From Protonemura montana (taxonomy: Eukaryota; Arthropoda; Insecta; Plecoptera; Nemouridae): 64,000 bases of DNA. Location of the stretch: assembly GCA_947568835.1 (NCBI GenBank), contig OX387611.1:3104001-3168000 (forward strand), in the 5' to 3' direction. The position numbers and the translations under genes were made by a program. This document shows positions 155-51,300 of this stretch, piece by piece (position 1 is the first letter of the stretch; every line of letters begins with the position of its first letter). Below the pieces are notes generated by a model, which did not search any database, was not told the DNA's origin, and saw nothing but the letters and a program-made list of their open reading frames with translations.

Positions 155-3100
155 CGTGGACAGCCACGGATGATCGTGATGATCGATTCCCCGACGATCG
201 TTCCTCGTTTGAGTGAAAAAGCTTCGAGTCTCGGATGACGTTTGCCGATCATTTGAACGATGCGAGCGGTCAGGGTCATGTCATCAAGGTTTAGTCCAAC
301 GAGGTAGTCACAGTGACCAAGTAAAAAAAGCAGATCTAGAGCGTTAAGAAAAATGATTTAACTTATTAAATTTGTAGTGTTTAACGATGCACTGTTTTGA
401 CAACGTGCCATGCGGCACTGGTCTAATAGTGTCGCTGAATGGGTGAAAATCAACCTAACCTACCCTACAAGGAAGGGGAAACCCGGTGCCGGCACGTAGC
501 CTACTCCTGTCGAAGACTAAGGGGACCACCGGCTTAACGTCCCTTCCGAAGGACGGTACAACGCGAACAACAGGATTCCTCCACAAATCCATGCTGTCGA
601 GAGGTTGATAAGCAAGGCGAGTGAAGTTGCTGTACTAACTTTCATCCCTCCAACCTCTCTCCCGAACAGAACTGGTCATGTGTATGATGGTCACCCATCC
701 AATACCTGACCCAGCGCAGTGTTGCTTAACTTTCATCCCTCCAACCTCTCTCCCGAAAAGAACTGGTCATGTGTATGATGGTCACCCATCCAATACCTGA
801 CCCAGCGCAGTGTTGCTTAACTTTACCCCTCCAACCTCTCTCCCAAACAGAACTGGTCATGTGTATGATGGTCACCCATCCAATACCTGACCCAGCGCAG
901 TGTTGCTTAACTTTCATCCCTCCAACCTCTCTCCCAAACAGAACTGGTCATGTGTATTATGGTCACCCATCCAATACTTGGCCCAGCACAGTAATTAAAG
1001 CTTTATTAACCCCAGCATTGCCAAGATTTATTGGTTTTTACCAGAAGCTTTTGAAAACTTTGACTAAAATACCTGCCTGGTTCTGAAATGCCCGAATTGG
1101 AGAGATCCAGGAATCGCAATGGAAACGATCCAACGATGTGCCTGTACATAGCGGGGCTACAAACCTGAGGAACGTAAAGAAATTGACAATTAATTACAAC
1201 ATCTCGTTAGAGCGTGAAGGGTAGGGGAATGGAGGGTGAAACAGCTGTGTGTTTCAGATGCCGAGAGATATACCACGTTTATTCTGTCACTCAGTCTTGT
1301 AGAGTACAAGAATCGATAAGAGCATCGTATTGGAGTTTGCTCATCACGGAAGCGAATCCAAGCCAGAATCGGTTGATAAATTTTAATAAAAATTTGTGTA
1401 AATCCGTGTCCAGTTGAAAAAGTGGACCAGTTTTCTGTCACGAGTTTTTAATCTTGGGGTTTCAGCTTTTGTCTAGCAGATTTATTCTTTGAAATCTCTA
1501 CAGAAGAAATTATGGGAACTTTTGTAATTTTTATGAAATTTTATGTTTAAGGTAAGGTTTTTGTTGAAAATAGGAATAAAAAAAAAGGAATAAACAACGA
1601 AATTGAGAAATGACAGAGAGTTGAACCAACGTTTTAAAGAATTTTTATGAATTTACAGTTTTGTTTGTTTTTATTAACAATTGATGCAAACTAAAGAAAA
1701 ACTATTTCAACTGGGTTTTCAATGCTAAGTGAAGAACAACTAAATTTCCCAACGTTTCGTAACTTGTACCTGTTACTTTATCAAGGGTAAGAGCAGTCCT
1801 GACAATTTTCCAATAACAAAAGAACCACAAAAAATTATAACAATTACCTAGTTCAAGCATAAACTTGGTAATTGTTATAATTTTTTGAACTTGATAATTT
1901 TTTGAACTTGAAGAAGAAGTAACAGGTACAAGTTACGAAACGTTGGGAAATTCAGTTGTTCTTTACTTAGCATTCAAAACCCAGTTGAAATAGTTTTTGT
2001 TAAAACTAGTGCTAAGTTTACATCAAGTAGACATGAGTCTAAAACAATCATTGAAACAAATTGTTTGAGCACGGCTGGTTTCACGTACCCAAGCTTGTGA
2101 CAAGTTGAGTCGTTTGATTCCTCGCGCCAGCATGAAGTTGAGCTTCCCGGACTTCAGGATCTTCTTTCGCAAGTCCAGGCTCTTGCCGTTCCAGAGCGTG
2201 AGGTCCGTGGACAGGCACGACCAACGCCTGAACAACGTTGAGTATAACCGTCAAAACATGACCCAAGTTTACCGTCCATGTAGTTTGATGTTTTATGGGA
2301 GAAAAGACAAAAAACTGCTGAAGTTCATGCACTCATTTGTATTCTAAAATTTTAATAAAAATTAGAATACAGCTTGGATTTTTGGGGTGTTGAAAAATGT
2401 AACTATTGAATTTTTTTATCGTGAGGGCAATTTTTTTGGACAATGAGTCTCTTAGACTTTCAAATCAAATCTGATTTGATTTGATCTGATAGACTTTCAA
2501 ATTTGATTTTAGAAATCAAATCAAAAGCTATGGATTATTTACTAATGGACCCTGAGCCCCAGAGGTTACTTTTGGTTCCCTAAAAAATTATTCCATTTAT
2601 TTTCAAACAAGGCATACATTTTTCTCTGTGTTTTTTTTATTTTTTATTATATAACTTGATTGGTAAGCAAAATTTGCAGACTGATTTTTGCTGAAAAATG
2701 CATCGAGTCAAAGCCGAGAGGACCATTGTTAAAATTTAATCAAAATCTAAACCTGCAAATCAGATTTTTAAGCACGAAACGCATCCAACGTCAAATTGGA
2801 GTTATTTGAGTTTGACAGGTTGTGACGTGATATAGCGTCACTAGAATCAGAGTGACTGCGAGTATTCACAGCCTCTTGGTTCTACTCCTTGGAGAACTGT
2901 CATCCTCATCAAATACACTAAAATCCTGTCCACAAATGATGTGTCCAAGTAGCTCAATTGGTTAGAGCAACACCCGTGACAGGTGGAGATCGGGGTCCAA
3001 GTAGCTCAATTGGTTAGAGCAACACCCGCGACATGAGGAGATCGGGGTCCAAGTAGCTCAATTGGTTAGAGCAACACCCGCGACAGGTGGAGATCAGGGT

Positions 3101-3937
3101 CCAAGTAGCTTAATTGGTTAGAGCAACACCCGCGACATGAGGAGATCGGGGTCCAAGTAGCTCAATTGGTTAGAGCAACACCCGCGACAGGTGGCGATCA
3201 GGGTCCAAGTAGCTCAATTGGTTAGAGCAACACCCGTGACAGGTGGAGATCGGGGTCCGAGTAGCTCAATTAGTTAGAGCAACACCCGCGACAGGTGGAG
3301 ATCGGGATTTCGAGTCCCCGTTTGGACAAAACTTTATGAGTTATTAATTTTGTTCCTTTAACAAAATCTGTACGGTTATGTTGGGTCTGTCAAGTGGTCT
3401 ACAACATCTACTAATCAGCGCTGTATTGTCAATGTCACCTGCAAACCAACGCCACTTGGTTTAGTGAAAGCAACGGCAGGTTTGTAAATATTTTTATCAG
3501 TATTTCATCGGGAAGCATCGCGATGTTGATGCGGTCTTCGCCGGTCGTTGTTTGTGTTGGATAATTTCCGGTCGGAACATCAGGGTCAACGAAATCCTGG
3601 AAAGAAAGGAGGAACGGTGAAAGAAAATCAAAACGTCTTTTTAGTGCTAAGGCTATGGTTTCATTTGATCAACAAAACCTTAGAAGCTTCTTAAAAAATA
3701 ATCTACTAGTGCAACGATTTTGAAATCCATAGAAAAAACTTTGTGGGGACTTACATCTTTGGAGGGGTAGTCCTCAATGGCATTGTCAACTGCTGGCAGC
3801 TTTAGCCGCTTGCTACGAAGGTAGCTAGAAAAAAAATTCATAAAATAACTGTCAGAATCATCAGCAGCAAGAATAAATACTTGCCGACTTACTTCATTCA
3901 AAAATACTTCACGTTCGATGCCTTGAAACTTCGACAT
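155..3937 (-). CDS. Skp2: SKP2-like F-box/LRR protein, 5' five exons (3' end off window)
   Basis: Predicted substrate-recognition subunit of an SCF ubiquitin ligase. Coding exons in transcript order are 3937-3755, 3596-3439, 2227-2089, 1164-1077 and 335-155; phases close at every junction. Exon 1 starts at ATG 3937 and has a KRLK basic patch. Exon 2 holds the F-box core (LPDEILIKIF...ALVCR), continued in exon 3 by RWSCLSTDLTLW. Exons 4-5 give three consecutive 25-residue leucine-rich repeats, starting LRFLDLSNSGIS, LVGLNLDDMTLT and LEAFSLKRGTIV. This order (KRLK region, F-box, DLSNS-type first LRR) resembles vertebrate SKP2 more than generic FBXL proteins. The exon 4 donor must be GC (CAG/GCAGGT) to keep frame and LRR spacing. 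Exon 1 could contain a short intron, but it reads open throughout. The rest of the LRR domain lies left of base 1. Family assignment is firm; SKP2 orthology is inferred. Confidence 0.8.
371..992 (-). mobile_element. 5S rRNA-headed SINE, copy A (with about 4 tandem 5S monomers)
   Basis: On the minus strand it reads 91-bp 5S-like monomers (992 to about 641), then a unique body with a GGAGGAATCCTGTTG-type core, then a 3' tail ending near TTAAACACTACAAAT at 371. Each monomer carries the 5S A-box/IE region (GTTAAGCAACACTGCGC) and C-box (TTGGATGGGTGACC). It lies between SKP2 exons 4 and 5. Confidence 0.8.
1697..2048. mobile_element. Foldback (MITE-like) element, family A copy 1
   Basis: Two long inverted arms meet around 1880. 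The left arm begins AACTATTTCAACTGGG and includes TTTCCCAACGTTTCGTAACT. The right arm is its reverse complement and ends in AACTAGTGCTAAG / CATCAAGTAGACATGAG. The same arms recur at nine other sites in the window. There is no coding capacity. It lies in the SKP2 intron and ends only about 40 bp from exon 3. Confidence 0.75.
2783..3350 (+). repeat. tRNA-like tandem array T1 (7 x 52 bp) with shared 5' flank
   Basis: From 2943 to 3328 seven 52-bp units each repeat a tRNA D-arm/A-box (TAGCTCAATTGGTTAGAGC) and an anticodon-arm-like segment. Only the last unit (3255-3328) continues into a B-box-like GATTTCGAGTCCCC and a 3' acceptor strand (GTTTGGAC) that pairs with its 5' GTCCGAG. The first six units lack the B-box. 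The upstream flank 2783-2942 (CAACGTCAAATTGGAGTTAT...) is shared with 43675-43790 and, in part, with sequence before array T2, so the array belongs to a dispersed element. The loop lacks the usual T33, so a functional tRNA is unlikely. Confidence 0.8.
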
Positions 3938-5150: not shown

Positions 5151-6653
5151 AGTTAAGCAACACTGCGCTGGGTCAGATATTGGATGGGTGACCATCATAC
5201 ACATGACCAGTTCTGTTCGGGAGAGAGGTTGGAGGGATGAAAGTTAAGCAACACTGCGCTGGGTCAGGTATTGGATGGGTGACCATCATACACATGACCA
5301 GTTCTGTTCGGGAGAGAGGTTGGAGGGATGAAAGTTAAGTAACACTGCGCTGGGTCAGGTATTGGATGGGTGACCATCATACACATGATCAGTTCTGTTC
5401 GGGAGAGAGGTTGGAGGGATGAAAGTTAAGTAACACTGCGCTGGGTCAGGTATTGGATGGGTGACCATCATACACATGACCAGTTCTGTTCGGGAGAGAG
5501 GTTGGAGGGATGAAAGTTAAGTAACACTGCGCTGGGTCAGGTATTGGATGGGTGACCATCATACACATGATCAGTTCTATTCGGGAGAGAGGTTGGAAGG
5601 ATGAAAGTTAAGTAACACTGCGCTGGGTCAGGTATTGGATGGGTGACCATCATACACATGATCAGTTCTGTTCGGGAGAGAGGTTGGAGGGATGAAAGTT
5701 CAGCAACACTGCGCTGGGTCAGGTATCGGATGGGTGACCATCATACACATGACGAGTTCTGTTCGGGAGAGAGGTTGGAGGGATGAAAGTTAAGCAACAC
5801 TGCACTGGGTCAGGTATCGGATGGGTGACCATCATACACATGACCAGTTCTGTTCGGGAGAGAGGTTGGAGGGATGAAAGTTAAGCAACACTGCGCTGGG
5901 TCAGGTATTGGATGGGTGACCATCATACACATGACAAGTTCTGTTCGGGAGAGAGGTTGGAGGGATGAAAGTTAAGCAACACTGCGCTGGGTCAGGTATT
6001 GGATGGGTGATCATCATACACATGACCAGTTCTGTTCGGGAGAGAGGTTGGAGGGATAAAAGTTAAGCAACACTGCGCTGGGTCAGGTATTGGATGGGTG
6101 ACCATCATACACATGACCAGTTCTGTTCGGGAGAGAGGTTGGAGGAATGAAAGTTAAGCAACACTGCGCTGAGTCAGGTATTCGATGGGTGACCATCATA
6201 CACATGACCAGTTCTGTTCGGGAGAGAGGTTGGAGGGATGAAAGTTTAGCAACACTGTGCTGGGTCAGGTATCGGATGGGTGACCATCATACACATGACC
6301 AGTTCTGTTCGGGAGCGAGGTTGGCGGGATGAAAGTTAAGCAACACTGCGCTGGGTCAGGTATTGGATGGGTGACCATCATACACATGACCAGTTCTGTT
6401 CGGGAGAGAGGTTGGAGGGATGAAAGTTAGTACAGCAACTTCACTCGCCTTGCTTATCAACCTCTCGACAGCATGGATTTGTGGAGGAATCCTGTTGTTC
6501 GCGTTGTACCGTTCTTCCGAAGGGACGTTAAGCCGTTAGTCTTTCTGGCCTTCGAAGGAAGCTAACTCCGTCTAGACTATGTTACGTTTTTCAGCCAGTC
6601 GTTCACCAACACCATTAAAACAGTGCGTCGTTAAACACTACAAATTAATAAAG
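5151..6653 (+). mobile_element. 5S rRNA-headed SINE, copy B (about 14 tandem 5S monomers)
   Basis: About fourteen 91-bp head-to-tail monomers (5151 to about 6428) are followed by one SINE body and a tail ending CACTACAAATTAATAAAG. Monomers are more than 95% alike by eye and keep the 5S internal promoter blocks GTTAAGCAACACTGCGC and TTGGATGGGTGACC. The 36-bp body segment AGCAACTTCACTCGCCTTGC... is present once here. Confidence 0.85.
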
Positions 6654-10144: not shown

Positions 10145-11102
10145 ATGAAAGTCCTGATCGCTTTCACCCTCGTATTCTGCGTGGTATTCATGACGTCAGC
10201 GCTGGCAGCGCCCTACGACGACGTCAGCAAATACGACGAAGATAAGGAGGTGAGATCATCGAAGTTAAGCAACACTGCGCTGGGTCAGGTATTGGATGGG
10301 AGACCATCATACACATGACCAGTTCTAATCGGGAGAGAGGTTTGAGGTATGAAAGTTAAGCAACACTGCGCTGGGTCAGGTATTGGATGGGAGACCATCA
10401 TACACATGACCAGTTCTAATCGGGAGAGAGGTTGGAGTGATGAAAGTTAAGCAACACTGCGCTGGGTCAGGTATTGGATGGGTGATCATCATACACATGA
10501 CCAGTTCTGTTCGGGAGAGAGGTTGGAGGGATAAAAGTTAAGCAAAACTGCGCTGGGTCAGGTATTGGATGAGTGACCATCATACACATGATCAGTTCTG
10601 TTTGGGAGAGAGGTTGGAGGGATAAAACTTATCAACCTCTCGACAGCAACTTCACTCGCCTTGCTTATCAACCTCTCGACAGCATGGATTTATGGAGGAA
10701 TCCTGTTGTTCGCGTTGTACCGTCCTTCGGAAGGGACGTTAAGCCGGTGGTCCCCTTGGTCTTCTACAGGAGTAGGATACGTGCCGGCACCGGGTTTCCC
10801 CTCATCCCTTCTAGGCTAGGTTATGGTTATACTGACTTATTCACCAACGCAATTGCATCAACAGTTCATTGTTACAATGTTATAGATTGTTTGTGTTGGT
10901 AACGTTGGTAATGTTTGTGTTTGTGTTGGTAATTTAAGTGATGTTTTGTTGGCTGCAGCTTGCCCGGGAGTTGGCCAGCCTGATTTACCAGGCAAGTCGT
11001 CGCGGAGAGCCGACTTTGTTTGCAGCAAAGCGCAACTCCGAGCTGGTCAACACCCTGCTCGGTCTGCCGAAAGTGCTTAACGATGCCGGACGTAGGAAGT
11101 AG
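10145..11102 (+). CDS. pdf: Pigment-dispersing factor (PDF/PDH) neuropeptide precursor
   Basis: Secreted neuropeptide precursor of 82 aa in two coding exons (10145-10249 and 10959-11102, phase 0). Residues 1 to about 21 form a signal peptide (MKVLIAFTLVFCVVFM..ALA). The PDF-associated peptide region follows, then a KR cleavage site (59-60), then the 18-residue mature peptide NSELVNTLLGLPKVLNDA (61-78) with the amidation/cleavage signal GRRK and stop. Insect PDF and crustacean beta-PDH are 18-residue amidated peptides of this form; PDF is the main circadian clock output peptide and acts on the class B receptor PDFR. V5 and T7 replace the usual I and S. The acceptor TTTTCCAG sits 10 bp before the ATG. 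The intron holds a 5S-SINE that begins within a few bases of the donor. Identification is firm. Confidence 0.95.
10250..10875 (+). mobile_element. 5S rRNA-headed SINE, copy C, in the pdf intron
   Basis: 5S homology begins right at the pdf donor: GTGAGATCATCGAAGTTAAG aligns with the 5S segment that reads GTGAGATTACCGAAGTTGAG in the 33.2-kb copy. About four 91-bp monomers run to about 10620, followed by the SINE body and a decayed tail. The 36-bp body segment (CTTATCAACCTCTCGACAGC...) is present twice here (10627-10682). Confidence 0.8.
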
Positions 11103-12345
11103 ATGTCGAGGACAAAGGTTTGTTCATAAACATAAGGATTTAGATAGAATGGAGACTTTTTTTTGTTAGCTTTTTGAATACGTCTTTGAAAACTTTCGAC
11201 TTGAGCTGGAAACAAGATTTACTGACTTATATGACTGATAATAAAGGCTCTCGTGGTTCTTTCGAAATTTCCAATTCAATCAGAAAGTGAAAACTTCTTA
11301 ACTTTTATAAATTTGCTTTTAAATTGCAACCAATTTAAACTACCTGCTTTTTTGATAAAAATTATATAATTTTTTTTTATTTATCCCTTTTTAACACAAA
11401 GGTAAATTTGATAATTTTGATTCTTCAATATTTTCTGTAATTGAAGTCTCAGTCCTTTGTCTCTGTAAAACCAGGTTCAATTCTTTATTTCATCCCAATT
11501 CATCCCATCCTGTGGTCTTCCTTCCCTCCTTGTTGTATACTTCATTTTAAACAACTTATTACGTTACCTATTTTCCTCCATTCTCACCACTTTACCAAAA
11601 AGCTTCAGCCTTTACTTGCAAATTAAACCTACCCTAAAAACTCCTTCCTATTGTGTTTCCAGCAAATCTTTTGAAAATCAGTCCCAAAAGTTTCCAATGC
11701 TTTGTAAGCAACATTTTTTTCTTATCATGAGCACCTCTCAAAATGTTGACCTAAATTAACAGCCTCGTGGTTCAACTCCTTGGAGATCCGTCATTCTCAT
11801 CAAATACATTATCATCTGAACAAATTATGTGTCCAAGTAGCTCAATTGGTTAGAGCAACACCCGCGACAGGTGGAGATTGGGGTCCAAGTAGCTCAATTG
11901 GTTACAACAACACTTGCGACAGATGGAGATCAGGGTCCAAGTAGCTCAATTGGTTAGAGCAACACCCGCGACAGGTGGAGATCGGGGTCCAAGTAGCTCA
12001 ATTGGTTAGAGCTACACCCGCGACAGGTGGAGATCGAGGTCCAAGTCCACGTTTGGGCAACAATTATTGAGAGGTTATTGGTGTTTAAAATAATAAAAAA
12101 TTTTGCCCATTGCAAGTATGTGAAATTTAAGTCAGATTTCCAAACTTCACTAACCACAATCCGTTTTTTTCCCGCAGGCCGTAGCAAGACGTGGCATGCG
12201 ATTCCAACGAACCAGAGCATTGATACCAACCCGATAAAGCTGGATGCAAGACTGGAGGACACTTAACCAATACCAACCTTTTAAACCTAATGCGCTGTAA
12301 AACATAACCTGTGATGCAAAAATAAAACAAACATATTATAAAGTA
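11103..12345 (+). other. pdf 3' UTR region with candidate last exon and poly(A) signal
   Basis: After the pdf stop, a possible donor (GACAAAG/GTTTGT at 11117) could splice to an acceptor CCCGCAG/GCC at 12177/12178. That would give a non-coding last exon ending with AATAAA at 12321-12326. The intervening DNA holds tRNA-like array T2. The donor is weak and an unspliced 3' UTR is equally possible. Confidence 0.4.
11755..12130 (+). repeat. tRNA-like tandem array T2 (4 x 52 bp) with flanks
   Basis: Four 52-bp units with TAGCTCAATTGGTTAGAGC occur at 11831-12040. Upstream is the ACTCCTTGGAGATCCGTCAT flank shared with T1. Downstream is a CATTGCAAGTATGTGAAATT tail related to the motif at 27690, 32700 and 43625. 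The conserved 5' and 3' flanks around variable array lengths mark it as a member of the same dispersed element. Confidence 0.75.
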
Positions 12346-12494: not shown

Positions 12495-13095
12495 TCCACT
12501 ACACACGTGGTAACGGTAGGTGCCACCTGATGGCGCTTGCTGCTGAGCAAACGAGGCCGGCAACACGTGGTAACGGTAGGTGCCACCCGATGGCGCTTTC
12601 TGCTGAGCAAACGAGGCCGGCAACACGTGGTAACGGTAGGTGCCACCCGATGGCGCTAGCTGCTGAGCAAACGAGGCCGGCAACACGTGGTAACGGTAGG
12701 TGCCACCCGATGGTGCTTGCTTCTGAGCAAAGGAGGCCGGCAACACGTGGTAACGGTAGGTGCCACCGATGGCGCTTGCTGCTGAGCTAACGAGGCCGGC
12801 AACACGTGGTAACGGTAGGTGCCACTCGATGGCGCTTGCTGCTGAGCAAACGAGGCCGGCAACACGTGGTAAGGGTAGGTGCCACCTGATGGCGCTTGCT
12901 GCTGTGTGTTTTTTTTTAAATAAACCTCTATAGTTAAATAAGAACGACTCAAAATTTTGATTAATGTTTATCAATCGTTGAGGTTAGCATTAATAAAGAT
13001 TAATTGAGTGTAAACCAGACTCAAATGCGAGTAATCTGCAAGAAATAACGAAATGACATTCCTGACAAATTGAAATCTGCTGATTACCATCGTAA
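12495..13095 (-). mobile_element. Composite element C1: 7 x 60-bp minisatellite plus foldback-type arm
   Basis: Seven 60/61-bp units (12505-12905), each with CACGTGGTAACGGTAGGTGC and a GAGGCCGGCAA segment, are followed by an arm (12930-13090) with TATCAATCGTTGAGGTTAGC, TTGAGTGTAAACCAGACTC and GCGAGTAATCTGCAAG. The same arm plus the same unit occurs at 15578-15800 (one unit) and 55745-56300 (six units), so unit number varies between copies. It lies between the pdf and CDK11 3' ends. Confidence 0.8.
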
Positions 13096-16300: not shown

Positions 16301-19300
16301 TAACAACAGCTTTATTGGCTGAGATGATACTGGCTCTATCCAGGTTATTTGAGATCAGCTGGCTGGATCCTATGCTCTATCCAGGTTATTTAAGATCAGC
16401 TGGCTGGATCCTATGCTCTATCCAGGTTATTTGAGATCAGCTGGCTGGATCCTATGCTCTATCCAGGTTATTAGAGATCAGCTGACTGGATCTTATGCTC
16501 TATCCAGGTTATTTGAGATCAGCTGGCTGGATCCTATGCTCTATCCAGGTTATTTGAGACCAGCTGACTGGATCCTATGATCTATCCAGGTTATTTGAGA
16601 TCAGCTGGCTGGATCCTATGCTCTATCCATGTTATTTAAGATCAGCTGGCTGGATCCTATGCTCTATCCAGGTTATTTGAAATCAGCTGACTGGATCCTA
16701 TGCTCTATCCAGGTTATTTAAGATCAGCTGGCTGGATCATATGTTCTATCCAGGTTATTTGAGACCAGCTGACTGGATCCTATGCTCTGTGAAGTACCTT
16801 GGTGCAGAGGAGAAGTTCAGGAGATCGATACCAGAGTGTCACTACGATCGGTGTGTACGCTTTCAGCGGCGACCCGTATTCACGAGCCAGACCGAAGTCG
16901 CCGACCTTGAGGATGCCCTTGTGGCTCAAAAGAAGGTTGGAAGTTTTGAGATCTCGGTGTAGGATCCAGTTGTCGTGGAGATGGGAGACGGCTCGAAGAA
17001 GCTGCTGCATCAGACACTTGACTTCACCTGCAAGTACAAGATTCACAGCCTCTTGGTTCTACTCCTTGCGGATATGTCATCAAATACACCAAAATCCTCT
17101 CAAAATATATATGTCCAAGAAATTAAAATAAAATAGGACATAACAAAAACTATTTGAAATGAGTTTTGAATGCCAAGTAATGGGCTACTAAATTTCCAAT
17201 ACTTTTGATCTGCAAAAGTAAATTTGTTCGTTACAAACCCAAATTTTCTTTCTTGTGTCTTGAATGGTTAATTTATTTCTGCAGATCAAAGGTATGGAAA
17301 ATTTAGTAGCCCTTTAATTAGCATTCAAAACACAGTTCAAATAGTTTTTCTAAAAACTTGTGCTAAGGATAAATCAAGTAGACATGAGTTTAAAAACCAT
17401 CATAAAATAGGACATAATTGAGTGAAGCTTTTTTTTGGTGGTATATAAATTAAAATGTGAAGAGCCGTGTGTTAAAGAGATCACAAAAGTTAAGCAACAC
17501 TGCGCAGTGTCAGGTATTGGATGGGTGATCATCATACACAAGACCAGTTCTGTTTGGGAGAGAGGTTGGAGGGATGAAAGTTAAGCAACACTGCGCTGGG
17601 TCAGGTATTGGATGGGTGACCATCATACACATGACCAGTTCTGTTCGGGAGAGAGGTTGGAGGGATGAAAGTTAAGCAACACTGCGCTGGGTCAGGTATT
17701 GGATGGATGACCATCATACACATGACCAGTTCTGTTCGGGAGAGAGGTTGGAGGGATGAAAGTTAAGCAACACTGCGCTGAGTCAGGTATTGGATGGGTG
17801 ATCATCATACACATGACCAGTTCTGTTCGGGAGAGAGGTTGGAGAGATGAAGGTTAAGCAACACTGCGCTGGGTCAGGTATCGGACGGGTTATCACTTGC
17901 CTGGTATAAAGACTTGTTTCTTCTGTTTCATGGTCTCCATGAGGGACTTAAGATCGTGTTCAACGTAATCCATCACGATGAAGATCTTGTCCATGTTGCT
18001 ACCGACGACAATCTCTCGTACGGTCACGATGTTCAGGTGCTGGGCCTGCGAAGATTAAACCTTATGTTGTAAAATCTGATTTAAATTGCAAACGCTTGTA
18101 AAATGCAAAGTATATTTTGAGAGGTTAAGCGATCCTTACAATAAATTAAATGCTCTTTCTTTAGTCTTTGACGTGTTTTAAAAACGAGGCCAACTTCATC
18201 GATGAGTTTTAACAACTTTAATGTGCATCTTTGTTCCTAACATTTTTTTCCCAAAATGTCTAACAATCAAAACATTGCAGTTTTTTTTCTTGGTTTTTCT
18301 GACATTTCCACTAGGGAGCTTAAACCATCAAGCGGATGATGGAAAGAAAGCTAGACTGGAAAAATGTGCAACCAACCTGGGATACGAACCCGGGACCTCC
18401 AAATTGCCGGTCGGGCCGGGGCCAAAACCCGACTGGCAATCGGGAGGTCCCGGGTTCGTTTCCCGGTTCAGTTGCACATTTTCCAGTCTAGCTTCCTTTC
18501 CATCAGAACAATGTTTAAAAATTTGAAGCTCATCAGAACGCTACGTTTGACTCCATTTTTGGCACAGATTGATACATAAAAAAAAACTCAACGTATTTTG
18601 AACCCAACGCTCTTGTCTGGCTAGGACTTGAAAATACTTAAACAATTATAAATTAACCGCTAAACCCGATGCCGATGGTCCTCGTTGATAGTACCTTGAG
18701 CAATGTGTTGATTTCCCGTAGCGAAGTTATCGGAAATCCTTCTTTCTCCTTCTCCATCTTGAGCCGTTTCAATGCGACTACCTCCTCGTTACTGCGATCA
18801 CGAGCTCGATAAACCACGCCGTACGTTCCCTCTTCGATGCTGAAAGCAAGCAGTGGGTAAACCTAGTGCCGCAAAGCAGCCTGCTCCTGTCCAACAGCAC
18901 CAAGGACCGGCCACCGCTTAGCCTTGTCACTTTGACACACTGTGTTGGCTGCTCTTGTCCAACAGCACCAAGGACCGGCCACCGCTTAGCCTTGTCACTT
19001 TGACACACTGTGTAGGCTGCTCCTGTCCAACAGCACCAAGGACCGACCACCGCTTAGCCTTGTCACTTTGACACACTGCGTAGGCTGCTCCTGTCCAACA
19101 GCACCAAGGACCGGCCACCGCTTAGCCTTGTCACTTTGACACACTGTGTTGGCTGCTCCTGTCCAACAGCACCAAGGACCGGCCACCGCTTAGCCTTGTC
19201 ACTTTGACACACTGTGTTGGCTGCTCCTGTCCAACAGCACCAAGGACCAGCCACCGCTTAGCCTTGTCACTTTGACACTCTGTGTTGGCTGCTCCTGTCC

Positions 19301-22300
19301 AACAGCACCAAGGACTGACCACCGCTTAGCCTTGTCACTTTGACACACTGTGTTGGTTGCTCCTGTCCAACAGCACCAAGGACCAGCCACCGCTTAGCCT
19401 TGTCACTTTGACACTCTGTGTTGGCTGCTCCTGTCCAACAGCACCAAGGACCGGCCACCGCTTAGCCTTGTCACTTTGACACACTGTGTTGGCTGCTCCT
19501 GTCCAACAGCACCAAGGACCGGCCAACGCTTAGCCTTGTCACTTTGACACACTGTGTTGGCTGCTCCTGTCCAACAGCACCAAGGACCGGCCACCACTTA
19601 GCCTTGTCCCGTTGACACACTGTGTTGGCTGCTCCTGTCCAACATCACCAAGGACCGGCCACCGCTTAGCCTTGTCACTTTGACACACTGTGTTGGCTGT
19701 CTCTGTGTTGGAATAAATCTCACCGATTAAGACACTGGAATTCCTCAACGCTGCGGCACCCGGATACTGCTGGTAGGTACGGAGGAAGTTCATCTTCTTC
19801 TTCCTCCTCCAAGGTTTCCGTCGGCTCTCCTGGACTGCTTCCTGCGGGAAGAAAGGGAAACTTAGCACGAAGGTAGAAACTACAAAACGTATTGTTCTTG
19901 TTTGTCTAGGTTGAAAATGGGACAGATTAAAAAAAAAGTTATTTTGATATTTGGGAAAAAACTACTTACTGGTTCCTAATTTCTGCCTCAGCAGATCAGA
20001 TTTGGAGGCAGATTCACAAATTTTTGGTAAATAAGGATTTACCAGAGTTTAAAAATAATCAGCCAATGATTTATTTAATGGCCGATTGCATAAGAATTGC
20101 ATGAGAATTGCATGAGAATTGCATGAGAATTGCATAAGAACGTTGAAAAAAGTGAAGATTATTGCCAGCAAATGTTGCTGATTTTTAAAGGCATTTAATG
20201 AAAATACACAGAGACAGATAAGGGATAGAATCATGGGAAGGACAGACGTGAAATTGAAAGGAGAATGTGGCAAGGAAACAACCAACTGAACTGGAATCCG
20301 GTCTTAGATTTTTTTCGCCTTTCGCTCTTCTTCCAAATAGATGGAAACCTGAAATCTGACCTAACCAAAAATGAAAAAATTATGAAAAGAAAAAACCAGG
20401 TCAAAAAGGTTCAAATCTAAAAGGAGGCAAATAACTAAACGATTAAGGACATAGTTGAGCCTTGAAACCTTTCAAAACAGGTAAACCTGAAGAAATGTGC
20501 TAACAAAAACTATATCAACCAAGTTTTCCATACACATAATTGTTTAGTTAGTAAAAAACACCAATTTGTTCGGTATTTTAGTTCAGAAAATACAAAATAC
20601 ATTAGTTTTTGAGTTATTGACCCTGATTATTTTATTTAGATGCATTTAGGAAGCTTGAACTTGGTAATTGTTATAATTTTATGTGGTTCTTTTGTTATTG
20701 GAAAATTGTCAGGACTGCTCTAACCCTTGATAAAGTAACAGGTACAAGTTACGAAACGTTGGGAAATTCAGTTGTTCTTTACTTAGCATTCAAAACCCAG
20801 TTGAAATAGTTTTTGTTAAAACTAGTGCTAAGTTTAGATCAAGAAGACATGAGTTTTTGTTAAAACTAGTGCTAAGTTTACATCAAGTAGACTTGAGTTT
20901 TTGTTAAAACTAGAGCTAAGTTTACATCAAGTAGTCATGAGTCTATTAGCCTTAAAAATAAAGGTGCTGTTTTTGCAGCCCCATTCTATGTTAGAAGCCC
21001 ACGAGGTTGACTCACCGTTATGCCCCTCCCCCTGCCTTCTGTCCGCAAACGAGTCGGTGTCGTCGTCGGACACGGAAGCCGCTCGCGAAGTCGCGACCTT
21101 CTCGTCGTCCGTTTCCCCGCCCGGAGATTCGTCCGTGTCCGCAGCTGCAACAGGTTGACATAACCTAGCTTTCCTAGATCTTGACAGACTTAACCTAGCA
21201 TTATTAGAAAAACTACCTCTTTTAACAGACAAGACTTCTTAACCAGGCCTTCGTTTCACAAACATAACCGAGCTTTCAAACGAATTTCAGACAAAACACA
21301 TGCACTTTTTTAACCCTGTTGCTTGAGGATGATGGGACATAAGAATTTTTTAAGTCGTCCGCATTGGCCACTGCAATAAGTTGACATAACCTAGCTTTAA
21401 TTAGATTTATATTATTTATTTGTTGTGTTTAATGTTGCACTGTTCTGACATCTGGGCATGCGGCACTGGTCTAATGGCGTCGGTGAATGAGTGGATGATG
21501 ATGAACCTAACCTAGCCTAGAAAGGAGGGGAAACCCGGTGCCAGCACGTAGCCTACTCCTATCGAAGACCAAGGGGACCACCGGCTTAACGTCCCTTCCG
21601 AAGGACGGTACAACGTGAACAACAGGATTCCTCCGCAAATCCATGCTGTCAAGAGGTTGATAAGCAAGGCGAATGAAGTTGCTGTACTAACTTTCATCCC
21701 TCCAACCTCTCTCCCGAACAGAACTGGTCATGTGTATGATGGTCACCCATCCAATACCTGACCCAGCGCAGTGTTGCTCAACTTTCATCCCTCCAACCTC
21801 TCTCCCGAACAGAACTGGTCATGTGTATGATGGTCACCCATCCAATACCTGACCCAGCGCATTGTTGCTTAACTTCGGTGATCATACGAGAACCGGTGTT
21901 TCCAACACGCCAAACCGTTCCTAAGTGCTAAGTGCAGATGGTCTTAACGGCTTCAACTTGAGTTTCTTCTCTCTTTAGCGATAAAGGCAAAAGCCGAGAC
22001 GTATTCATATTATATCATATTCATATTCATATTCATATAGCAGAACCCGCTGCCTAACGGCCTCTTCAGATTTTGAGGGAGTGGGCATTTTGGTTTAAAT
22101 GTAAAGCCTCTTATGGGACCACAACCAAAAATACCATGCAATACCATACAGTAGCCCCATTTATTTTATTTGAAATTTGCCGCTTATGTCACTCGGGGTC
22201 ACTGCATTGTGGAAACTCTGTGAATTCCAAAGTGACCACGATGACAATTTCGAAAACAAACGACGTTGGCATATATCATATATCATATTTCATCATATTC

Positions 22301-25300
22301 TTGTAATCTGAACTCACCTGCTTGCGTGTCTGTGTCAGTCTTGGAGTCGGATTCATCGTCAGCTGACTCGTCTGAACTTTCCTCCTCCTCTTCTTCCTCT
22401 GCCCCGCCCTCTTCTTCCGACTCCTCCCCTTCCTTGCCTTCTTCCCCCTCCACCGCTTCGTCCGTGGCGGAGGAATCATCTGACACATCAACAACGTCCA
22501 TCTGCTCTGGAACTGCAGAAAAAATATTTTGAGATAAAATCTAATAAATAATAATAACGAATTTTTGCGACGTTTCGTTAAGTTTTGCTACGAGCTTCGG
22601 TATTTATCGAGTTTAAAACAAAAACGTGTCGGCTTTTACTGCTTGGAAAGCGTGCAGAGATGTGAATTGAAAAAATAGAACAGAAAGAGTAAAAAATTTA
22701 ATGAAAATCACCTACTTTTCATTTTTTTTTGTTTACTGCTCTTACCCTTGATAAAGTAACAGGTAAAAGTTACAAAACGTTGGGAAATTTAGTTGTTTTT
22801 CACTTAGCATTGAAAACCCAGTTGAAATAGTTTTTGTTAAAACTAGTGCTAAATTTACATCAAGTAGACATAAGTCTAAAAACCATCAGCTTGGAGAAAT
22901 GTTTGTGTAGTTTTTTAACATGGCACGCTGGGATAAGAAATATGCAAATGCATTTCTAAATTCTTTCTGTATTTTTGTATAAAGGCACATAGGAAAATAT
23001 ATCCTCGACCGCTGAGATACAATTTGATTTAACCCATTTTTTAGAACCACGCACTGGGTCCTAGCAGAGGTCCAAAAATATTCTTTTAAAAACCCAAAAA
23101 TAACACAAAAACCAAACGCGCAAAAGAGAATAATTCCTAGGTTACGTAACGTTGACAATTTAGCAAGTCAACAACGATGTTTAAATGTCGGTCAACATAC
23201 CTGGCTCCTCTTCCGGTTCATCGACTTTGAGTTTCTTCCGCTGCCGGCTGCGACTTCGCTCGCGCTTGCGTACGATTTCATGCATCGCCCGTTCCTTCTC
23301 CTTCTCCACCTTGTGCCGCTCCCGACGCGCCTCAAGCTCCCGGCGGTAGATCTCCTTCTGCCGATCTGCGTAGCATAAGTGAGGTTAGAGTGACCATCGA
23401 GTTAAGCAACACTGCGCTGGGTCAGGTATTGGATGGGTGACCGTCATACACATGACCAGTTCTGTTCGGGAGAGAGGTTGGAGGGATGAAAGTTAAGCAA
23501 CACTGCGCTGGGTCAGGTATTGGATGGGTGACCATCATACACATGACCAGTTCTGTTCGGGAGAGAGGTTGGAGGGATGAAAGTTAAGCAACACTGCGCT
23601 GGGTCAGGTATTGGATGGGTGACCATCATACACATGACCAGTTCTGTTTGGGAGAGAGGTTGGAGAGATAAGAGTTAAGCAACACTGCGCTGGGTTAGGT
23701 ATTGAATGGGTGACCATCTAATAAAAAAAATCTTGAAAAATAAATCAATTATGAAGGATAAACTCACTGGCTTCTAGAAGGAACTCCCTCCGCGGGGCTC
23801 CTTCCCCTCGTTCCGCGACTTTTTCCGCCACCGGCTGACGTTCCCGGCGATCTCGATGCTCTTCAGAACGCTTGTGTTCTGCGCTTTCCGTCTTTCGTTC
23901 CGCGCGTTCTTCCACGCGCCGCGATTCCGACCGCTCGTGTCGCGGCGCGTCGCGGAACTCTGCGAAAATCAACAATTGGCAAACGTGAAAAAAAAGGAAG
24001 TTATATGACAGAGTTTAATTCAAAAGTTTACGTTTTGTGATGTAAAAATATTTTGCAATTTTGTCCAGCGCTTTATTCTTTCAACTCAATTTTAACTCGA
24101 GAAATGTTGATCCAGGTGTAAATATTTAACAGAGATTAACACATAGAGAAATGTTAATAAAAGTAAATGATTTTACCCACTCTTGACCTTTTACATTTGT
24201 CACCATTGAATTGACCATTTCACATGTATTTGCATAAATAAATACTGACGTGGTCTACACAATCCAATTAATATCATCGTTGAGTGTAGGTTATAGGTAG
24301 AGTTTCAACGTCAATGTTACAGTCTCTGAGTGAAAGATGGCCGCCAAATGACTACCTTACCGACAAAAATGCAGAGTACCAGAACGTCACGTTAAGTGGA
24401 GCCACTGTCGTATGAAATTTAATTTCAATATTTCTCGTAGGTTAACTCGCTTTTGAATATCGTTACATGTAAATCAATCGTTGAGGTAAACATTGATGGA
24501 GATTTTTTGAGCATGAAAAGTCTCAAAAGCAAGTTAACCTACGAGAAATATCAAAATTAAAATTCATACGACAGTGGCTCCACTTAACGTGACGTTCCGG
24601 TACTCTGCATTTTTGTCGGTAAGGTAGTCATTTGGTGGCCATCTTTCACGCAGAGACTGTAACATTGACGTTGAAACTCCACCTATAACCTACACTCAAC
24701 GATACAACTGACCAAATAAAACTAAAAATACTAATAAAGCTAAAAAATTTATTTTGTTTTTTCGATGTGATAGAACTGTGCCATTTTGAAAAAACATTGA
24801 ATGTCGAGTTTTTATGTTATTATTTTATTTTGAAATGTTAAGCTCGTCGACTGTGAACTCGGCCAGAAGAGAAAGTCTGATTTTGTCGAAAAACCTACCT
24901 CGGTGATCAACTTCTTCCGTCCACGCTGTCGGCCGTTCTAACCGCACTTCTTTGCTCTCCCCGCTTCGTTCCTTCCGCGTTTCCCGCTCCGCGCGAGAAT
25001 CCGTCCGTTGTTCGCGCGGATCTATCCGCACCTCGCGCTGCTCCGTACGTTCTGTACGTTCCGTTCGTTCCGTTCGTTCCGGTCGCGCTTCGGACGGGAA
25101 ATCCAACCGCGAATCACGCGGATCTGCAGCTCTTTTGTCGGCGTGGCGGCTAAAAAGTAAAAAAAAAAAAAAAATCAACTTATGATTATGGTTTTTATCA
25201 CATTTATCCCATATCAGTCCCATATGATAACCAAGTTTTAAGATCCTTGTGTGCCATGCTTGTGCTTATTGCTATGTCAATTGTGTGCAGTCCCATATGA

Positions 25301-29600: not shown

Positions 29601-32600
29601 ATGGAAGGAGTGGAAGAATTTTTGAATCCTGTGCTGTTTGGTATCGTCGCATTCGAGTTTGTCTGGGACTTCTGTGAATACCAATATTACAAACGGATTC
29701 TAGAAGCAATAAAGGTGAATGAAATGACATGCATGGCGAAGTAAATGAACCCGCATTCGAATTGCACGCAAGTTTTATTCACCTATGACATTAATAAAGT
29801 TAAGCAACACTGCGCTGGGTCAGGTATTGGATGGGTGACCATCATACACATGACCAGTTCTGTTCGGGAGAGAGGTTGGAGGGATGAAAGTTAAGCAACA
29901 CTGCGCTGGGTCAGGTATTGGATGGTTGACCATCATACACATGACCAGTTCTGTTCGGGAGAGAGGTTGGAGGGATGAAAGTTAAGCAACACTGCGCTGG
30001 GTCAGGTATTGGATGGGTGACCATCATACACATGACCAGTTCTGTTCGGGAGAGAGGTTGGAGCGATGAAAGTTAAGCAACACTGCGCTGAGTCAGGTAT
30101 TTGATAGGTGACCACCATACACATGACCAGTTCTGTTCGGGAGAGAGGTTGGAGGGATGAAAGTTAATACAGCAACTTCACTCGCCTTGCTTATCAACCT
30201 CTCGACAGCATGGATTTGTGGAGGAATCCTGTTGTTCGCGTTGTACCGTCCTTCGAAAGGGAAAATAAGCCGGTGGTCCCCTTGGTCTTCGACAGGAGTA
30301 GGCTACGTGCCGGCACTGACTCTAACTCAGCTTCCTGTCAACAGACTGCGCCACAGTTCGACAGCGCTGTGGCGTCGTCTCTACGTTCGGGACAGACAGT
30401 GGCGTATGGCGTGGTCCACGGGACGGTACGAGCTTTGGACGCTCCAATAAAGAGTGCGCTTGTTCCGGGGTTAACAGGTGTGGTACAAAGGTTCAAGGTC
30501 GTGCGGTATCTGGCCTCGAAGGACTTCTTCGGATCTTGGTAGGACATGGACCAAATTGATTGATTGTATTTTACATTTTTTATACCAATTTTTTGGCATT
30601 TTTCTTTTAATTCTTGTCTACCAGGCGTCACAGCAAGGAGACGGTGCGGGATGGCATCGAGAAAACACGGTTTGGACTTCTTTGTGGTGAACACTTGGTC
30701 CATCTTACAGACAAATTCACAGAAAACCTGAGACTTGTGCACCTTGCAAGGACCGGATACGAGATCAAACAAGTGTCCGATGTGGCTACCGGGTTGCAAC
30801 AAGTCTTCGAGCTCACAGAGGTAAGCAAAGCAAGACTCCTGCTCTTCCAGGCTAGCTTAACCAGCCCGACGCAGTGTGTCAAAGTGACAAGGCTAAGCGG
30901 TGGCCGGTCCTTGGTGCTGTTGGACAGGAGCAGCCAACACAGTGTGTCAAAGTGACAAGGCTAAGCGGTGGCCGGTCCTTGGTGCTGTTGGACAGGAGCA
31001 GCCAACACAGTGTGTCAAAGTGACAAGGCTAAGCGGTGGCCGGTCCTTGGTGCTGTTGGACAGAAGCAGCCAACACAGTGTGTCAAAGTGACAAGGCTAA
31101 GCGGTGACCGGTCCTTGGTGCTGTGAGACAGGAGCAGCCAACACAGTGTGTCAAAGTGACAAGGCTAAGCGGTGGCCGGTCCTTGGTGCTGTTGGACAGG
31201 AGCAGCCAACACAGTGTGTCAAAGTGACAAGGCTAAGCGGTGACCGGTCCTTGGTGCTGTGAGACAGGAGCAGCCAACACAGTGTGTCAAAGTGACAAGG
31301 CTAAGAGGTGGCCGGTCCTTGGTGCTGTTGGACAGGAGCAGCCAACAAAGTGTGTCAAAGTGACAAGGCTGAGCGGTGACCGGTCCTTGGTGCTGTTGGA
31401 CAGGAGCAGCCAACACAGTGTGTCAAAGTGACAAGGCTAAGCGGTGGCCGGTCCTTGGTGCTGTTGGACAGGAGCAGCCAACACAGTATGTCAAAGTGAC
31501 AAGGCTAAGCGGTGGCCGGTCCTTGGTGCTGTTGGACAGGAGCAGCCAACACAGTGTATCAAAGTGACAAGGCTAAGCGGTGGCCGGTCCTTGGTGCTGT
31601 TGGGCTGAGATTTTCTTTGTGATTTCTTAGCGTCTTCTTACGGAAGATACTCCAGCTACTGCGCTGGGTGAGTTGTTTTTCGACGGCACCAACTTCGTGA
31701 TGAAGGCGCCTAGTGACGGCATGAACCACTTCCTTACCACGGGTTCGGTGTCTGCAATTGAAGAGAGCGTTGACAGCTTTAGAGCTACTTCCAAGTAAAA
31801 TTATTTCATTCTTTTTAACTTGTGTTTAACGACGCACTGTTTTGACAACCGGTCTAATAGCCAAAGTCCAAAGTACTCAGAGTGCCTTTTTTTCTCTAGG
31901 ATTTTTGGAATCATTTTTGGTGGACTCTCGACGGTCATCGTTTGTGGATTCCTGTATCGTAGGTGGCAGGATTACCGGGTAAGTGAATGATACTTGGACC
32001 CCGATCTCCACCCGCGAAAGGTGGAGATCGGGGTCCAAGTAGCTCAATTGGTTAGAGCAACACCCGCGACAGCTGGAGTTCGGGGTCCAAGTAGCTCAAT
32101 TGGTTAGAGCAACACCCGCGACAGGTGGAGATCGGGGTCCAAGAGGCTCACTTGGTTAGAGCAACACCCGCGACAGGTGGAGATCGGGGTCCAAGTAGCT
32201 CAATTAGTTAGAGCAACACCCGCGACAGGTGGAGATCGGGGTACAAGTAGCTCAATTGGTTAGAGCAACACCCACGACAGGTGGAGATCGGGGTCCAAGT
32301 AGCTCAATTGGTTAAAGCAACACCCGCGACAGGTGGAGATCGGGGTCCAAGTAGCTCAATTGGTAAGAGCAACACCCGCAACAGGTGGAGATCGGGGTCC
32401 AAGTAGCTCAATTGGTTAGAGCAACACCCGCGACAGGTGGAGATCGGGGTCCAAGTAGCTCAATTGGTTAGAGCAACACCCGCGACAGGTGGAGATCAGG
32501 GTCCAAGTAGCTCAATTGGTTAGAGCAACACCCGCGACAGGTGGAGATCGGGGTCCAAGTAGCTCAATTGGTTAGAGCAACACCCGCGACAGGTGGAGAT

Positions 32601-33018: not shown

Positions 33019-33089
33019 GTGCAGTAATAACATGAACATTGGCTTTTATTTGCTTTTGTATTGGGTTTGTGTGAGATCTTGGAAAGCAA

Positions 33090-33313
33090 CCTTACACTGA
33101 GTCAGGTATTAGATGGGTGACCATCATACACATGACCAGTTCTGTTCGGGAGAGAGGTTGGAGGGATGAAAGTTAAGCAACACTGCGCTGGGTCAGGTAT
33201 TGGATGGATGACCACCGAACGGCTAGACGTATTGGAAACACCGGTCCTCGTGAGATTACCGAAGTTGAGCAACACTGCGCTCGGACAGGTTTTGTATGGG
33301 TGATCACCGAACG
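33090..33313 (+). mobile_element. 5S-derived repeat, copy H, with the longest 5S-like stretch
   Basis: One or two 91-bp monomers lead into a 5S segment with the upstream part retained (GGAAACACCGGTCCTCGTGA, GATTACCGAAGTTGAGC, GGTTTTGTATGGGTGATC). This gives near head-to-tail 5S-like units rather than the SINE monomer. Both ends of 5S are missing and the C-box is mutated, so it is a pseudogene or SINE head, not a functional 5S gene. It lies between MUL1 and COPS7. Confidence 0.7.
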
Positions 33314-39544: not shown

Positions 39545-39852
39545 AGAGGTTGATAAGCAAGGCGGGTGAAGTTGCTGTACAAACTTTCATCCCTCCAACC
39601 TCTCTCCCCAACAGAACTGGTCATGTGTATGATGGTCACCCATCCAATACCTGACCCAGTGCAGTGTTGCTTAACTTTCATCCCTCCAACCTCTCTCCCA
39701 AACAGAACTGGTCATGTGTATGATGGTCACCCATCCAATACCTGACTCAGCGCAGTGTTGCTTAATTTTCATCCCTCCAACCTCTCTCCCGAACAGAACT
39801 GGTCATGTGTATGATGGTCACCCATCCAATACCTGACCCAGCACAGTGTTGC
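39545..39852 (-). mobile_element. 5S rRNA-headed SINE, copy I (5' part)
   Basis: Three 91-bp monomers on the minus strand plus a short stretch of body (GAGGTTGATAAGCAAGGCGG), abutted on the right by a family A foldback element. Confidence 0.8.
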
Positions 39853-48300: not shown

Positions 48301-51300
48301 TGAGTCTAAAAACCATAAAAAACACTTTACCATTTAGCAGTTGCTACTTAAGGTTAGCTTTGAAGCCAGCGCCGCCATCTTGAGAGTGATATTTGAGTTG
48401 CCTACCTGTGTGGAGAGCAGAATAGCTCGCACGTAAGCGTATATGTTTGCAGAAACGCCTTCTGTCGGTCCTGCAATGACCAGGATGTAGGTGATCCCAA
48501 GCAATGGAATCAGAACCAGCAAAGCTTTGGTCGCTTTACGATATTGTTGGGTCTCAACGTTGTTAGCTGAACGAAGCTTCGTGATTAGCACCTGTCAGGT
48601 GGGCAAGAGACATTGAGATTAAACACATAAAGTATAAGAAAGTAAATGATTGGCTGTCGCTGTGAACATGAATATTTAACAGATATTTCTCTTTGATTGA
48701 TTTGTTGGGTTTAACTTAGCACTGTTTTGACATCTGGTCATGTGGCACTGGTCTAATGGCGTCGGTGAATGAGTGGATGATGATGAATCTAACCTAGCCT
48801 AGCAGGGAGGAGGGGAAACCCAGTGCCGTCACGTAGCCTACTCCTGTCGAAGACCAAGGGGACCACCGGCTTCACGTCCCTTCCGAAGGACGGTACAACA
48901 CGAACAACAGGATTCCTCCACAAATCCATGCTGTCGAGAGGTTGATAAGCAAGGCGAGTGAAGTTTCTGTCGAGAGGTTGATAAGCAAGGCGAGTGAAGT
49001 TGCTGTCAAGAGGTTGATAAGCAAGGCGAGTGAAGTTGCTGTCGAGAGGTTGATAAGCAAGGCGAGTGAAGTTGCTGTCGAGAGGTTGATAAGCAAGGCG
49101 AGTGAAGTTGCTGTCAAGAGGTTGATAAGCAAGGCGAGTGAAGTTGCTGTCGAGAGGTTGATAAGCAAGGCGAGTGAAGTTGATGTTGAGAGGTTGATAA
49201 GCAAGGCGAGTGAAGTTGCTGTCGAGAGGTTGATAAGCAAGGCGAGTGAAGTTGGTGTCGAGAGGTTGATAAGCAAGGCGAGTGAAGTTGTTGTCGAGAG
49301 GTTGATAAGCAAGGCGAGTTAAGTTGCTGTCGAGAGGTTGATAAGCAAGGCGAGTGAAGTTGTTGTCGAGAGGTTGATAAGCAAGGCGAGTGAAGTTGCT
49401 GTCGAGAGGTTGATAAGCAAGGCAAGTGAAGTTGGTGTCGAGAGGTTGATAAGCAAGGCGAGTGAAGTTGCTGTCGAGAGGTTGATAAGCAAGGTGAGTG
49501 AAGTTGCTGTCGAGAGGTTGATAAGCAAGGCGAGTGAAGTTGGTGTCGAGAGGTTGATAAGCAAGGCGAGTGAAGTTGCTGTCGAGAGGTTGATAAGCAA
49601 GGCGAGTGAAGTTGCTGTCGAGAGGTTGATAAGCAAGGCGAGTGAAGTTGCTGTCGAGAGGTTGATAAGCAAGGCGAGTGAAGTTGTTGTCGAGAGGTTG
49701 ATAAGTAAGGCGAGTGAAGTTGTTGTCGAGAGGTTGATAAGCAAGGCGAGTGAAGTTGCTGTCGAGAGGTTAATAAGCAAGGCGAGTGAAGTTGCTGTCG
49801 AGAGGTTGATAAGCAAGGCGAGTGAAGTTGCTGTCGAGAGGTTGATAAGCAAGGCGAGTGAAGTTGCTGTCGAGAGGTTGATAAGCAAGGCGAGTGAAGT
49901 TGTTGTCGAGAGGTTGATAAGCAAGGCGAGTGAAGTTGTTGTCGAGAGGTTGATAAGCAATGCGAGTGAAGTTGCTGTCGAGAGGTTGATAAGCAAGGCG
50001 AGTGAAGTTGTTGTCGAGAGGTTGATAAGCAAGGCGAGTGAAGTTGCTGTCGAGAGGTTGATAAGCAAGGCGAGTGAAGTTGCTGTCGAGAGGTTGATAA
50101 GCAAGGCGAGTGAAGTTGCTGTCAAGAGGTTGATAAGCAAGGCGAGTGAAGTTGCTGTCGAGAGGTTGATAAGCAAGGCGAGTGAAGTTGCTGTCGAGAG
50201 GTTGATAAGCAAGGCGAGTGAAGTTGCTTTCGAGAGGTTTATAAGCAAGGCGAGTGAAGTTGCTGTCGAGAAGTTGATAAGCAAGGCGAGTGAAGTTGGT
50301 GTCGAGAGGTTGATAAGCAAGGCGAGTGAAGTTGCTGTCGAGAGGTTGATAAGCAAGGCGAGTGAAGTTGCTGTCGAGAGGTTGATAAACAAGGCGAGTG
50401 AAGTTGCTGTCGAGAGGTTGATAAGCAAGGCGAGTGAAGTTGCTGTCGAGAGGTTGATAAGCAAGGCGAGTGAAGTTTTAAAAGTTGAAAAGAAAAGAAT
50501 CAATAATTTGCAAATGCCCAATTAGGAAAATGCAGCCAAAAAAATGCATCGTTTATAATCGAACAATTACCGCATCTGCATACATTTAAACAAAGAGAAA
50601 AGGTTTTGAATTCCCAACTTCTCTTTCTCAACTGAGAAATGGCCTCTTTGTGTACCTTTTTTAACTAAAGACAAGAAACCTCTAGCTTTTACCGCTGAGC
50701 GAAGGTACAAAAGACCAATGTGCAAGCTTTTATACGAGGAAAACCACAAAAGACATTGTTACCAGATAATGCATTGCCCCCATATAATGCCAGACTTGCT
50801 TTCTACTTATTTCTTAGACACAATAGACGACCACTTGGCCTCGTTTCTTAGAATCTATATCCAGTGAGAGAAGATACCAGCACAAGGACTGTCCCAGCGT
50901 TGCAACAGTCTAGCCCGTGAGAGAAGATACCAGCACAAGGACTGTCCCCTGCATTGCTACAGTCTAGCCCGTGAGAGAAGATACCAGCACAAGGACTGTC
51001 CCCTGCATTGCTACAGTCTAGCCCGTGAGAGAAGATACCAGCACAAGGACTGTCCCAGCATTGCTACAGTCTAGCCCGTGAGAGGAGATACCAGCACAAG
51101 GACTGTCCCCTGCATTGCTACAGTCTAGCCCGTGAGAGAAGATACCAGCACAAGGACTGTCCCCTGCATTGCTACAGTCTAGCCCGTGAGAGAAGATACC
51201 AGCACAAGGACTGTCTCCTGCATTGCTACAGTCTAGCCCGTGAGAGAAGATGCCATCACAAGGACTATCCCCTGCATTGCTACAGTCTAGCCCGTGAGAG

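Follow-up and report, generated by a model that had tools for sequence, protein, structure and literature searches.

SVA is a retrotransposed composite whose central VNTR varies in unit number, in which respect it is like the variable tandem part of the SINE described here, but this VNTR is not known to serve SVA as a promoter head, the role that is putative for the tandem part considered in this work. In mouse L1Md elements the 5′ end is described as a variable number of promoter-bearing monomers, with starts inside the array, and duplication of the monomers is said to help promoters survive a mode of retrotransposition that is prone to truncation (PMC6454616). In squamate reptiles, the satellites termed sSats are described as arrays of part of a SINE that end on one side in the remainder of the element, with several unit types and a subtelomeric preference (PMC10702118). 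Insect SINE3 or 5S SINEs, specifically HaSE3 of Helicoverpa, PxSE4 and PxSE5 of Plutella and SINE3-1_TC, are described as made of a 5S head, a body and a 3′ tail and as flanked by target-site duplications (PMC3272025, PMC8010984). A type 1 promoter that is copied without its upstream signals has been argued to be silent or weak (an argument cited in PMC3272025), which should handicap 5S-headed SINEs.

We analysed a 64-kb stretch of DNA (the window) located 3.1 Mb into the 13.1-Mb contig C14, the SINE-related features of which are collected in Table 1. The units of the array that starts at position 5151 showed 94.5–100% identity to the unit sequence, and units 3–6 have one private change in common. 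Columns 1–44 of the unit align with nt 49–92 of the host 5S rRNA (locus L001), whereas the remaining 47 bp are non-5S. The first-pass annotation had read the monomers as carrying 5S promoter blocks and the array as a 5S head amplified in tandem, and had asked for an alignment to the host 5S rRNA. The unit scored 29 in this alignment, whereas the highest score among 1000 shuffles was 15, and the head of fuller copies together with the unit scored 57 against a shuffle maximum of 17. The repetition of the head was borne out, as was the presence of a 44-bp 5S-like stretch in each monomer, but 5S sequence makes up only about half of the unit. The head itself is absent from the copy at 5151–6653. 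The bases from 6424 to approximately 6534–6561 were matched at 91–99% by 39 other best-scored places in the genome.

The window contains nine copies that have one or more near-complete units, eight of them with two or more, and the body is missing from three of the arrays. The number of units ranged from 1 to 14 over these nine copies, so that the earlier figure of 2 to 14 per insertion was nearly right. The two copies noted at first pass for their extra upstream 5S sequence are probably those at 21410–21920 (−), which has a full head, and at 33215–33306 (+), which has a diverged one; the Rfam 5S match in the former (21803–21923, 61.6 bits) was above cut-off. For comparison, ten random 10-kb regions, fetched from 100 drawn positions and picked for spread over contigs, contained eight elements with a unit, none of them with more than two units, and the window is richer in arrays than these regions.

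Table 1. SINE copies and SINE-derived arrays in the 64-kb window.
Feature	Positions	Strand	Evidence
Array of the 91-bp unit, 14 units, all containing a stretch similar to 5S nt 49–92	5151..6424	+	Repeat finding and 5S alignment
SINE body, consensus (body query) positions ~1–140	6425..6563 (end approximate)	+	Body match
SINE 3′ tail, body query positions 266–299	6618..6651	+	Body query match
4 units (first cut at 5′ end), body, tail	363..992	−	
4 units and body whose first part has a partial 36-bp duplication	10262..10828	+	
4 units and a partial unit, without body	17487..17895	+	
Full-length copy: 5S-like head, 2 units, body, tail	21410..21920	−	Rfam 5S
3 units and a partial unit, without body	23400..23718	+	
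4 units and body positions 1–159	29797..30316	+	
A near-complete unit and a partial unit, followed by a diverged 5S-like head with half a unit (33215–33306)	33084..33306	+	
3 units (first cut) and first 42 body bases	39545..39852	−	
Positions 14–49 of the same SINE body arrayed 43 times as a 36-bp unit, without 5S head	48700..50477	−	
68-bp array related to SINE body positions 106–149 (78–83%)	18855..19699	−	
Second 68-bp array of the SINE-body kind	30872..31603	+	

Full copies consist of a 5S-like head of approximately 47 bp, at least one 91-bp unit, a body and tail of approximately 300 bp and a short simple repeat of AAT or AATC. An element with head, unit(s) and body was present at 17 of the 20 loci fetched for an intact head–unit junction (L052–L071, the first 20 of 40 head matches listed). 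Both the unit and the body start with AAGTTA, and the unit therefore sits between short direct repeats. Allowing up to one mismatch, genome-wide searches returned 23,969 unit–unit, 7,555 unit–body and 7,207 head–unit junctions as well as 4,120 tail matches, while reversed-pattern controls for these junction and tail counts gave 0 matches genome-wide. The 258.5-Mb genome thus contains approximately 24,000 unit junctions. The head–unit count takes in some arrays of a second tandem register, with a 5S-derived unit of approximately 91–92 bp, which was seen at L029:4-246, at C1:1225130-1225613 (−) and at 33084–33306 of the window. Its unit seems to be made of the head and the 5S part without the 47-bp linker, and on this basis heads seem to have become tandem in at least two registers.

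Several sets of loci were used in the analyses that follow. Loci L010–L038 were picked by their likeness to the window body and were kept in the unit and target-site statistics. Loci L075–L094 were picked by exact unit–unit junctions on contig C1, and L095–L114 are exact unit–body junctions with no listed unit–unit junction nearby, which makes them no fair sample of unit numbers. Locus L009 was left out because it duplicates the window.

Exact target-site duplications of 9–15 bp flank 16 of the 61 copies for which both ends could be read, against a null of 0.7% from mismatched pairs, in which the two flanks were taken from different copies, one upstream and one downstream. Duplications become rarer as unit number rises, from 10 of 26 single-unit copies to 3 of 15 doubles and 3 of 20 copies with three or more units; copies with four (L013), seven (L026) and three (L072) units were among those with a duplication. 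At the copy at 5151–6653 no clear target-site duplication was found, the longest exact repeat being 4 bp. Since a 5S-like head, a common body and tail and target-site duplications occur together, the element is a 5S-headed SINE. The SINE3 interpretation given at first pass is thereby upheld, together with its statement that some copies run on into one common body and tail and its requirement of target-site duplications in genome copies, although not at the copy from which it was made.

At three loci on C1 (L072, L073 and L074, at 8.95, 23.32 and 20.98 Mb) arrays were observed as inverted tail-to-tail pairs, with the SINEs 2.6–2.7 kb apart. Approximately 500 bp of outer flank is common to both arms of L072, and L073 matches L074 at 95% over 5.1 kb. 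The arrays may mediate rearrangements.

The time at which units became tandem was approached through dimers and through a variable site of the unit. With site 22 excluded, the divergence between the two units of a dimer was 4.47% in 13 full-length dimers, and that between units taken from separate dimers was 4.38%. These equal distances exclude late duplication and are still compatible with duplication within one RNA at insertion, on which only site 22 bears. At this site two unit types, A and G, segregate, with A22 in 30% of array units and in 13 of 18 single-unit copies. The 13 dimers were GG in five cases, GA in three, AG in two, AA in two and GT in one. Both types were mixed in 41 of 67 arrays, and random dealing of the units gives 41.7 ± 3.0. 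Agreement at site 22 within arrays was 66% for adjacent pairs (n = 186) and 68% for non-adjacent pairs (n = 399), above the 58% expected by chance, so that mixing is incomplete and some array structure is present. We conclude that more than one unit lineage took part in founding many of the arrays; later growth of a one-unit insertion was therefore not the sole route to an array, and probably not the main one. The founders may have come from multi-unit sources, from transcripts joined in reverse transcription or from exchange between arrays. A late mutation hotspot or hypermutation at site 22 was also considered and was rejected, as A22 is common among array units that are unaltered elsewhere (14 of 36) and its frequency shows no increase with divergence.

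Arrays have also undergone real local turnover after insertion. Among 42 arrays of at least three units, units differed by 4.5% within and by 5.0% between arrays, the within-array value being the lower in 27 of the 42; the corresponding values in a set of 32 arrays were 4.2% and 5.1%. The nearest neighbour of a unit lay in its own array for 26% of 169 units, where 3.5% is expected by chance. These lower within-array distances and same-array nearest neighbours indicate local growth for part of the arrays. L074 (+) contains a repeated block of units, and one array has 3 units in L073 and 13 in L074, which are two copies of one segment of approximately 5 kb; the likeness of the smaller array of this duplicated segment, in L073, to L074 starts at the array. 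Overall, we judge it fairly probable that many copies were retrotransposed as multimers and that local turnover followed. Counting against the multimer reading are the incomplete mixing at site 22, the lower within-array distances, the scarcer target-site duplications of multi-unit copies, the crowding of multi-unit arrays towards one end of C1 and the features of the 5S-derived columns given below.

A plausible sequence of steps for this origin as multimers can be proposed. Pol III transcripts would run through the array, the unit consensus being without a T4 terminator (T4 was present in 8 of 303 units), and the reverse transcriptase of a partner LINE would then make new copies carrying several units. 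Such copies could be copied from multi-unit sources or be joined by template jumps at AAGTTA. A multi-unit copy truncated at its 5′ end would keep an internal promoter stretch, as proposed for the monomers of mouse L1, and arrays would turn over locally like minisatellites after insertion, more so near chromosome ends. A more specific form of this scheme, which we offer tentatively as a Pol III counterpart of the mouse L1 monomers, is that the SINE joins promoter-bearing units of different transcripts by template jumps at AAGTTA during reverse transcription, so that copies would be born with multiple 5S-type promoter stretches and could survive 5′ truncation with one left. Twenty-five elements, judged by eye, start inside or at a unit and away from the edge of the locus: five exactly at a unit without a head remnant, nine with a recognisable head remnant and 11 elsewhere in the unit. 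These starts are no more than suggestive of a 5′ truncation peak at the unit start.

The unit, by its 5S nt 49–92, would cover the A box and the greater part of the C box. It has diverged from 5S at approximately nt 62–69, close to the IE box, and its alignment to 5S stops at nt 92. By alignment to the host 5S rRNA the putative promoter boxes of the unit appear incomplete. The 5S-derived columns showed no sign of better conservation, with 2.6% variants against 2.2% in the rest of the unit (CpG left out), and the CpG columns change most (6.6%), both of which are as expected for neutral decay after insertion. From their sequence, the arrays are predicted to be transcribed.

Of the other explanations, gene conversion would exchange units between dispersed arrays, keeping the arrays alike and mixing unit types, and may act alongside multimer retrotransposition. 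We regard it as rather unlikely, though it can draw on a divergence test in which the 5′ part (units and body 1–80) was compared with the 3′ body and loci L010–L038 were left out. In copies with at least three units the 5′ part was 2.6% diverged and the 3′ body 7.6%, with the 3′ value the higher in 20 of 20. In single-unit copies the values were 3.6% and 5.5% (17 of 23; Mann–Whitney p = 0.013 against the copies with three or more), and doubles lay between (2.6% and 6.0%, 17 of 20). The inverted arms of L072, which have the outer flank and the SINE in common but not the inner flank, and the beginning of the L073 likeness at the array point in the same direction. The contrast in divergence thus fits array-centred gene conversion; however, trouble in aligning the 3′ body, which has CAT repeats and subfamily differences, could add to it, and singles trend the same way weakly. 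The divergence of units is moreover star-like, the distance to the consensus being approximately half of the between-array distance, which speaks against such exchange.

We consider it unlikely that this is an ordinary single-headed 5S SINE whose arrays are minisatellites, expanded after single-unit insertion by slippage or unequal exchange between AAGTTA repeats as in the reptile sSats, a process that is nonetheless compatible with the other readings. Such growth would account for the local duplications inside arrays and for the site-22 concordance above chance within them, but not for dimers whose units are as different as those of separate dimers, nor for a mixture of unit types in about as many arrays as expected when units are dealt at random. 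Its further support comes from the 36-bp and 68-bp pieces of the SINE body, which are arrayed too, and from chromosomal place. The junction of the 36-bp array was found 2,516 times; on C1 it has 68 exact places in about seven clusters, all in the last 2.1 Mb of the contig. The 91-bp arrays are also enriched near one end of C1: among the matches listed (the first 100 exact unit–unit places, which all fall on C1), the initial 2.3 Mb contains 21 of 34 clusters, and among those listed for unit–body sites on this contig it contains 16 of 80, with 64 beyond (Fisher p = 2.5 × 10⁻⁵ against the array clusters). Against this, the remaining 13 array clusters lie between 2.3 and 25.1 Mb. The four-unit and seven-unit copies with target-site duplications also count against growth from single units, but these duplications do not date the growth. 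Across contigs, 21 of the 37 best body copies (KS p = 0.002) and 18 of the 37 best head copies (KS p = 0.06) lie within 15% of a contig end, where 11.1 were expected in each case. Lastly, a tandem array of 5S genes or pseudogenes, or an rDNA-like array unrelated to retroposition, is extremely improbable despite the stretch like 5S nt 49–92 in the unit, being ruled out by the non-5S body and tail that are common to dispersed copies, some of which lie within target-site duplications.

The repetition of the head belongs to a broader tendency of this genome, in which the 36-bp and 68-bp pieces of the SINE body were put into arrays as well. Thirteen other array units in the window (60, a second 36, 41, 44, 73, 72, 31, 57, 54, 11, 49, 43 and 52 bp) showed no match to the SINE above shuffles. 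Of these, the 52-bp unit, arrayed at 2943–3306, 11831–12046 and 32009–32655, is the 5′ part of a tRNA-like sequence and contains a putative A box. A T-arm part occurs once after the first of these arrays and in degraded form after the other two, and Rfam called a tRNA at 11987–12059. The promoter-multiplying habit may affect tRNA-like repeats also. Minisatellite units were observed in both orientations for 54 bp (50864–54442 and 61249–62691), 41 bp (35828–36343 and 37028–37597) and 60 bp (12503–12904 and 55925–56287). A 44-bp unit occurs at 20808–20942 and 48039–48305 and starts again at the end of locus L052 (right flank), beside a stretch of inverted repeat recognised by eye; given this unit, tandem arrays may sit in non-SINE repeats too.

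Two further observations concern other parts of the assembly. The 5S genes on C11:70-105743 lie in both orientations, at first every 9.5 kb, an arrangement that points to linkage of 5S with some longer repeat, possibly rDNA. On the small contig C34, COX1 is readable in the invertebrate mitochondrial code, and one near-complete and one partial COX1 copy are present besides on the chromosome-size contig C4 (C4:5760925-5777755), as either a nuclear mitochondrial insertion or a mis-assembly. The C34 COX1, together with a host 5S similar to that of arthropods, indicates an arthropod genome.

Likened by description only, the present SINE and the insect 5S SINEs both have a 5S-derived head, a body, a 3′ tail and target-site duplications (PMC3272025, PMC8010984). 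Tandem heads are not described for the insect SINEs, the word "tandem" occurring 0 times in the main texts of these two papers, and a limited literature search found no report of tandem 5S heads. The nearest parallels would be the promoter monomers of mouse L1 and the SINE-derived satellites of reptiles. Mouse L1 and the present SINE both have tandem 5′ monomers in variable number per copy, with starts inside the array (PMC6454616), the promoter role being putative here; mouse L1 is a LINE with monomers of approximately 200 bp, and its promoter is of the Pol II type (PMC11602158), whereas here a SINE has a 91-bp unit with a 5S-type stretch. As described for the reptile sSats (PMC10702118), part of a SINE is in tandem, a longer terminal unit runs to the SINE end and several unit types occur. 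The SINEs of the sSats are tRNA-related, whereas the unit here has a 5S stretch and dimers look as if inherited as dimers. If the SINE does multiply a promoter-bearing unit, it would offer a second answer to the difficulty that the monomers of mouse L1 are believed to overcome, and the approximately 24,000 unit junctions make the conversion of a dispersed retroelement into satellite DNA testable. By analogy, the arrays would work most like the promoter monomers of mouse L1 and look like the SINE-derived satellites of reptiles.
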